Shown: piece by piece, positions 4,835 to 33,908 of the stretch | How positions within the stretch are numbered: the stretch's first letter is position 1 | Layout of the letters: every line of letters starts with the position of its first letter | Assembly: GCF_014695575.1 (NCBI RefSeq) | Contig: NZ_JACJOO010000039.1 | Coordinates: 1-64,000, forward strand | Reading direction: 5' to 3' | DNA from: Leptolyngbya sp. FACHB-8 | GTDB lineage: Bacteria > Cyanobacteriota > Cyanobacteriia > Elainellales > Elainellaceae | Length of the DNA stretch: 64,000 nucleotides | Notes under the pieces: generated by a model | Database searches by the model: none | The model's input: only the letters and a program-made list of their open reading frames with translations | What the model was told of the DNA's origin: nothing | Translations under genes and position numbers: made by a program

Positions 4835-6160
4835 CTAGAACAGGAAATTAATCTCTACGTCCCATTGATTGTCCTGGCGCTTCAGACGAATTTGTCGGAT
4901 AAATTCTCGAAAGTAGAAGCGACGTTCGGCTTCTGACAGGTCCTGCCAGAACTGCGGGATAGAAACAACCTGGGCGATCGCCATAAGATTCTCGGGCGGC
5001 AACTGATCCAGTCGATTCTGCAATGCTGCCATCTCAGTCCGCAAATGATACGCCCGTAGCTCTGTGGTTTCTGTATCTAACACCCCGGTCTTTAACAGCT
5101 CGGGCAGCTGCGTTAGCACAGCTTGCTTTTCCTGAATTTGCTGTTCGAGTTGGGCCTTGATGCTGGCTCCGGAAGGGGGGCCACCTGGCCCCTGCAATGC
5201 CGCTACAGCAGGAGGCAGTGCTTCACATACCCGCTGAATCGTTCGCTCTAAAACGTCGCCGTAGGCCAGAGCAGAGCAGCGAGGCTGCTGGGTGCACTGC
5301 ACTGGACGTAAGTATTCATAAACCTGAGCGCGCCGGGGGGCACTGACGCGGGTTGTGGTCATAGCAGAGCCACAGGTCGCACACGTCACCAGCCCTGCCA
5401 GGGAGCGGGAAGCACTGGCTGAACGAGAGGGAAGAGAACGGTTGCGGCGCAGTAGGCGTTCGATCTGGGCGGCTTCCTGTCGGGAAATTAGAGGGGCGTG
5501 GGTGTCGGCAATGACGTCACCATTTTGATAGGCCAGGTCGCCTCGATAGATAGGGTTAATGAGCCAGCGCTTGCCGGTAGAGACCGAAATGCGCTTGTTG
5601 TACTTCTGCTGCAAGTAGCGAACGCTGCCACGCAAGGATCCGTAAAGCAGAAAGTGCTCAAAAAAGTCTTTGACGACGGGAGCCGTTGTGCGGTCGAGGA
5701 GGTAGCGATCGCGTCCCCGTCGATACCCATAGGGAGCTTTCCCAGGAGGTGGCAAGGCTTTGAGACGATTACGGGCATGGCCTTGTCGAATCCGACGGCT
5801 GCGTTGCTCGGCTTGCAGCCCCTGCCAGAGAAGCCAAAGCTGAGGGTTATTGACGGGCTGTTCGGCCTCATCTGGGGCCAGGGAAACGGGAGTGATGCCA
5901 CGTTCGGTGAGGGCTTGCAGGCGATCGCCCACCTCCGCCACGCTTTCTCCGAGGTCAGACCAGCGGCGTACCAATACTTGCTGGACAGGTTCAGTCTCGT
6001 GATCCTGCAGTAATTGGAGCCATTGCAATCGGGGGCTCTGTGCTCCAGGGTCATGGCTAGACCAGTCTTGGTAAATTTGGGCGACAGGTTGTCCCCAGTC
6101 CACCTGGGTGGCTGAGTCTTCCAATAGGGGATCGAAGTTGAGGTAGGCGACCACCTTCAT
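4835..6160 (-). CDS. Serine-recombinase family protein with degenerate catalytic domain
   Basis: I chose the ATG at 6160 (MKVVAYLNFDP), giving 441 residues; an upstream in-frame ATG at 6205 would add 15. Residues about 150-255 match the Recombinase domain of large serine recombinases (APYGYRRGRDRYLLD, GKRWLINPIYRGDLAY). A zinc-ribbon-like region follows (GLVTCATCGSAMTT, then a later cysteine pair) and then a coiled-coil-rich C-terminus. The N-terminal resolvase-like part lacks the family's Y-x-R-x-S motif, and the usual LDRLGRS stretch reads RWSDLGES. The nucleophilic serine and key arginines therefore appear lost. XisF-type excisionases are the nearest functional class I know. A DNA-binding or regulatory role without strand cleavage is inference. 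It converges with the sensor kinase gene. Confidence 0.75.
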   Translation of the reverse strand: MKVVAYLNFDPLLEDSATQVDWGQPVAQIYQDWSSHDPGAQSPRLQWLQLLQDHETEPVQQVLVRRWSDLGESVAEVGDRLQALTERGITPVSLAPDEAEQPVNNPQLWLLWQGLQAEQRSRRIRQGHARNRLKALPPPGKAPYGYRRGRDRYLLDRTTAPVVKDFFEHFLLYGSLRGSVRYLQQKYNKRISVSTGKRWLINPIYRGDLAYQNGDVIADTHAPLISRQEAAQIERLLRRNRSLPSRSASASRSLAGLVTCATCGSAMTTTRVSAPRRAQVYEYLRPVQCTQQPRCSALAYGDVLERTIQRVCEALPPAVAALQGPGGPPSGASIKAQLEQQIQEKQAVLTQLPELLKTGVLDTETTELRAYHLRTEMAALQNRLDQLPPENLMAIAQVVSIPQFWQDLSEAERRFYFREFIRQIRLKRQDNQWDVEINFLF

Positions 6161-6309
6161 GCAAGTCTTTCTCAAAAATAGTCGAGAGTATGAAGTGTTT
6201 TGCAAGGCTGTACTGAATCAATGACCGCAGCACTATAGGGGCCCTGAGCCTCCTCTACAATGGTAATTCAGGCCTAAAAGGGCGCTCTACCCACAGGAAA
6301 TTTCGAACC

Positions 6310-7662: not shown

Positions 7663-7798
7663 TTACGTAACCTCAGTTCGGGTTAAGGGCTTTTTCGAGT
7701 GCCGCGCTTCGCGCGGCACTCGAAAAAGCCCATTATTGCGTGCGCGAAACGCACGCAATAATGGGCGGTTCGGCTTATTCCGAACTGACGTTACGTAA
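7663..7798. repeat. Clover-like element: outer stem enclosing two hairpins
   Basis: The outer arms are TTACGTAAC-C-TCAGTTCGG at 7663 and the complement of TTACGTAAC-G-TCAGTTCGG ending at 7798. Both ends carry TTACGTAA. Between them sit two perfect hairpins: 7688-7730 (20-bp stem, TTC loop, apex CCGCGC-TTC-GCGCGG) and 7728-7766 (17-bp stem, 5-base loop). The second shares its first bases with the end of the first. The element begins 12 bases after the pmbA-like stop codon. It resembles the element at 35563-35742 in architecture but not in sequence. Confidence 0.85.
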
Positions 7799-7810: not shown

Positions 7811-7859
7811 AGATTATTTGTGAAAAGGTCTGCGCTGCGGGGCTTTTCACAAATAATCT
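7811..7859. repeat. Intergenic hairpin
   Basis: AGATTATTTGTGAAAAG at 7811 pairs exactly with its complement ending at 7858/7859 around a 15-base GC-rich loop. It directly follows the clover-like element. The flanks (GAGGACAG and the complement of CTCAGGAA) are weakly complementary. Confidence 0.8.
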
Positions 7860-33827: not shown

Positions 33828-33908
33828 TAAGTGACCTAAATCAGCTTGAGAACTTTTTGTGGGTACTTGGCTTATCCCGGCTTGAGGTTAGGTAGGTGTA
33901 ATTCAACA

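Follow-up and report, generated by a model that had tools for sequence, protein, structure and literature searches.

A 122-bp IS982-type MITE of Leptolyngbya sp. FACHB-8 whose paired hairpins are probably kept complementary, and their loops flipped, by template switching

Introduction

Insertion sequences of the IS982 family are about 1 kb in length, have ends beginning with AC and generate variable short direct repeats (PMC7335449). Polymerase template switching between inverted repeats leads to homogenisation of the arms and inversion of the spacer (PMC8604942; PMC8794818), and a TTC/GAA spacer flip has been tabulated in yeast (PMC8604942). In this study, we describe a short repeated element of Leptolyngbya sp. 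FACHB-8 and compare it with these systems. The element was found in positions 1 to 64,000 of contig NZ_JACJOO010000039.1 (assembly GCF_014695575.1), and this whole stretch of 64,000 nucleotides is referred to below as the window.

Results

Inspection of the sequence confirmed the nested inverted repeats at 7663-7798 that had been noticed in a preliminary description. Their features in the window are as follows:

7670-7791, no strand assigned: whole element, a 122-bp MITE with IS982-type ends (borders set by comparison with other copies)
7664-7669, no strand assigned: left target-site duplication TACGTA, direct repeat of 7792-7797
7792-7797, no strand assigned: right target-site duplication TACGTA, direct repeat of 7664-7669
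7670-7687, plus strand: left terminal inverted repeat ACCTCAGTTCGGGTTAAG (end matched 546 times genome-wide; same end on full-length IS982 elements)
7774-7791, minus strand: right terminal inverted repeat, read on the minus strand as ACGTCAGTTCGGAATAAG
7687-7731, no strand assigned: hairpin 1, 21-bp arms 7687-7707/7711-7731, 3-nt loop TTC at 7708-7710
7728-7766, no strand assigned: hairpin 2, 17-bp arms 7728-7744/7750-7766, 5-nt loop CGAAA at 7745-7749

The two back-to-back perfect hairpins inside an outer inverted repeat are real, with lengths of 21 and 17 bp instead of the 20 and 17 bp first given. Both hairpins include the GCCC at 7728-7731, so they are never fully formed simultaneously. 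The outer arms are 25 nt long and match at 88%, with three mismatches where a single one had been counted, and only their inner 17-18 bp constitute the terminal repeats of the element. The sequence TTACGTAA, formerly taken for the ends of the outer stem, consists of T, TACGTA and A, TACGTA being a 6-bp target-site duplication outside the element which, since it is palindromic, mimicked an extension of that stem. The duplications at other copies are different (TACTTTA, TATTCA, TACAAA), so TTACGTAA does not belong to the element. With terminal inverted repeats of about 18 bp and no transposase gene in its 122 bp, the element has the make-up of a MITE. Its DNA fold reached −54.9 kcal/mol (z = −12 against dinucleotide shuffles), and an Rfam search of the window matched only tRNA and gave no family for the element.

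The window copy lies between converging genes: it follows one with a PmbA/TldD domain by 20 bp and precedes an ABC-transporter gene. Adjoining it, at 7811-7859, there is a second, unrelated perfect hairpin with 17-bp arms and a 15-nt loop, and nearby the minus strand (4835-6205) encodes a protein of the large serine recombinase type, which has both a Recombinase and a zinc-ribbon recombinase domain. The HIP1 palindrome GCGATCGC, a typical feature of cyanobacteria, is present 87 times in the whole window (1.36 per kb).

The end pattern was searched in the 6.9-Mb draft genome allowing up to 3 mismatches, with the reversed pattern as control. There were 265 + 281 (546) matches against a single one for the control, in line with the earlier expectation of further copies elsewhere in the genome, and the copy number would be about 270 if every end is paired. 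Near-identical copies are present by the hundreds, in both orientations. In the approximately 1.6 Mb of genome regions from which the copy statistics were drawn, 68 of 87 paired copies had the exact length of 122 bp, and duplications of 5-8 bp flanked 58 of the 85 copies within the size range; the duplications at other copies, of 6-8 bp, mostly had TA at the start and at the end. Subfamilies could be distinguished by stem sequence, A (which includes the window copy) and B being the largest. Nearly all copies were intergenic (72/76 clear of long ORFs, with 56 overlaps expected), and their flanking genes were convergent more often (23/63, p = 0.025) and divergent less often (7/63, p = 0.017) than expected. 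Two end-like matches with 3 mismatches each, at 1858-1875 and 33871-33888 on the minus strand of the window, are probably decayed or truncated relatives.

When the element end was scanned against public genomes, matches were obtained in many phyla. Full-length elements with matching ends included one of 965 bp in Trichocoleus, with the duplication TATTTA, and one of 983 bp in Phormidium tenue, with TAATCA; in general, the matching cyanobacterial IS982 elements were about 965-985 bp long with TA-rich duplications of 6-7 bp. The protein encoded by the Phormidium element is a transposase of the IS982 family (NF033520, 264 bits; PF13612, 234 bits). Nearly all full-length elements examined had GGGTTAAG at one end and GGGATAAG at the other, a difference that is kept in the MITE family and in the window element, whose copy adds one private change (GGA). 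Given that its ends and its 6-7 bp TA-rich duplications match those of full-length IS982 elements, the element is an IS982-type MITE. Two other assignments were considered. IS200/IS605-type elements make no target-site duplication, and a palindromic element of that type was ruled out by the 6-8 bp duplications at the copies. REP/REPIN sequences are tagged palindromes of 20-40 bp accompanied by a RAYT transposase; the length, ends and duplications of the element point elsewhere.

No IS982 transposase was found in the element's own draft genome, either with PF13612 or with an IS982 protein query, a result that is provisional because repeated insertion sequences may drop out of draft assemblies. 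The lack of an autonomous IS982 partner in this assembly weakens the claim of current mobility, not that of origin. One intact IS982 copy is present in a genome of the same genus. Among other draft assemblies with many ends, the transposase was not found in G013 (916 ends) or G009 (288 ends), and the IS982 copies of G016 (340 ends) were mostly broken.

Insertion of the element into pre-existing sequences can be read directly at two loci. At L063, a copy flanked by the duplication GGATTA is nested in an older relative, and removal of this copy and of one GGATTA restores a 115-bp relative with both ends. At L316 (G000:C73), a copy with the duplication TAAAATA lies within a diverged hairpin repeat, the uninterrupted relative of which is the sequence at 7811-7859 of the window. 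In the empty-site comparison with G001, of the same genus, the flanks of the window locus were on separate contigs (C79 and C98).

Relatives of 122 bp with different stem sequences were found in other cyanobacterial genomes. The two-hairpin plan, with different stems, is present in G000, G013, G016, Kaiparowitsia and Synechococcales M55, as well as in Pseudanabaena biceps, where a 145-bp element (L133:4337-4481) combines the same ends with two long perfect hairpins of other sequence. IS982-ended MITEs that lack this plan were found in Nostoc (224 bp) and Chryseobacterium (259 bp). In G009, the IS982-ended element is another one, 162-163 bp long (L233-L251, e.g., L233:1852-2014) and formed by a chain of several short hairpins.

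To follow the changes in the stems, 102 sampled 122-bp copies were compared within groups defined by our own similarity thresholds, each distinct change being counted once, which does not amount to tree-based events. The inner hairpins showed 102 one-sided changes and 42 two-sided changes that kept a Watson-Crick pair, against 67 one-sided and 1 compensated in the outer stem (Fisher p = 2.4e-7), which is an imperfect control since its arms are far apart and contain transposase sites. When the pairing register was slid, 10-21 double changes were counted versus 51 in the true register. The copies at L031 and L030 differ solely in a single base pair, both members of which have changed. Of the two-sided changes in the four main groups, 25 were each private to a single sampled copy, and some two-sided changes were common to several copies. 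Transversions without a paired intermediate made up 16 of the 42 two-sided changes, and one-sided changes yielding G-T were no commoner than those yielding A-C (40 vs 38). Because one-sided changes outnumber two-sided ones, arm conversion, as recorded in these copies, is frequent but incomplete.

The loops changed in a different manner. In all eight combinations of group (A, B, G016, G013) and hairpin, the loop ranking second in frequency was the exact reverse complement of the most frequent one. The loop of hairpin 1, TTC in the window copy, was GAA in 4 of 19 subfamily-A copies, and that of hairpin 2, CGAAA in the window copy, read CGTCG or, inverted, CGACG in most of them. In five of the eight, a single substitution suffices for the flip (GTC/GAC, CGG/CCG), which is weak evidence alone; exact flips that require three substitutions (TTC/GAA, GTT/AAC, TTT/AAA) were present in 28 copies, against 4 with other loops three substitutions away. 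Eleven pairs of copies were identical except for one flipped loop. All four combinations of the two loop states were seen in groups A, B and G016, and therefore the flips recur. Both arm homogenisation and complete loop inversion, by which template switching is recognised, were consequently found in these hairpins. Flips were not seen by eye in the few 162-163 bp elements available from G009, whose hairpins are short, and so they may need long arms.

Discussion

The copies with their ends and target duplications, the insertions into known sequences, the two-sided arm changes and the loop flips are, in our judgement, probably accounted for by a MITE moved by an IS982 transposase, whose hairpins are kept complementary and whose loops are flipped by template switching. 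An IS982-family DDE transposase would act in trans, recognising the approximately 18-bp ends of the MITE, and insertion at TA-rich sites would duplicate 6-7 bp. Inside a hairpin, the DNA polymerase would occasionally switch template: one arm would then be copied from the other, so that a mutation would be spread to, or erased from, the two arms simultaneously; if the switch were to the opposite strand, the loop would end up inverted. The pattern of changes leads us to infer template switching in preference to other hairpin-dependent processes, and the hairpins appear to be so maintained.

The compensated changes might instead reflect selection on the hairpins within the mobile element, where they could aid transposition, pair the ends or terminate transcription around it. 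This explanation, which we regard as unlikely although it is the best placed of the alternatives, agrees with the recurrence of the two-hairpin plan with different stems in the six genomes mentioned above, with the excess of convergent and deficit of divergent flanking genes and with a terminator-like hairpin followed by a T-run on the minus strand. However, the Nostoc and Chryseobacterium MITEs indicate that such ends do not require the plan in order to be mobile, terminator-like sites show no excess over shuffles (2 vs 1.4), and selection itself does not predict loop flips. It must be noted that such selection can coexist with template switching. Recombination or gene conversion between oppositely oriented copies, in which a palindromic hairpin can be aligned either way, is a still more doubtful source of the flips and of the stem changes that copies share. 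In its favour are the abundance of near-identical copies, hundreds of them and oriented both ways, and the two-sided changes that several copies have in common, but recombination spreads a two-sided change and cannot create it, and 25 of them are private to single sampled copies; it may contribute to the flips. Finally, the preliminary description was right in seeing a discrete clover-like element that is repeated, but it is very improbable that the element is a structured RNA or DNA with a three-way junction under selection for some cellular role, despite the stable fold, the compensated inner stems and the plan recurring in several genera, given an outer stem without covariation (67 one-sided changes against 1 compensated), loop flips that selection on stems would not predict, no excess of G-T over A-C, transversions that pass through no paired intermediate, and mobile copies scattered without one gene context or any Rfam match.

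With hundreds of near-identical hairpins in one genome, the family constitutes a natural mutation record in which bacterial template switching can be measured in the wild, including the proportion of flips to arm conversions and the dependence on arm and loop length. It also cautions against taking compensatory changes alone, when found in repeats of this sort, as evidence of a selected RNA structure. As a speculation to which we give little credence, the two-hairpin interior could be an adaptation of the element, its perfect hairpins being restored again and again by template switching and needed for mobilisation or for host tolerance, and the family could reach hundreds of copies by means of a non-IS982 enzyme where the genome lacks an IS982 transposase. 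When the literature was searched for inverted loops in MITEs of bacteria, there were none among the papers listed, which is weak evidence of absence.

With respect to known systems, the kind of element and the mechanism are each already described. What makes this family a useful variant is its unusual two-hairpin interior, the copy number reached in an assembly where no transposase was found, and how densely flips are recorded in it. The ends match those of cyanobacterial IS982 elements of about 965-985 bp; these are, however, around 1 kb long with a transposase gene, and in a 50-bp comparison the interior of the MITE showed no similarity past the ends. MITECca01, derived from the IS982 element ISCca4 in Cardinium (PMC9769881), is likewise short, with IS982-type inverted repeats, no transposase gene and many copies. 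In contrast, it measures about 240 bp and its genome holds an intact parental IS982, and the parts of its description available to us make no mention of a paired-hairpin interior. Nezha, an active MITE (Zhou et al., 2008, cited in PMC10969869), is similar in being a cyanobacterial MITE. The template-switch loci reported in yeast genes (PMC8604942) and in RNA hairpins (PMC8794818) share both signatures, arm homogenisation and spacer inversion. They are, however, scattered single loci or rRNA genes in which loop inversions are rare, whereas the flips described here are spread over many copies of a single mobile element of bacteria.
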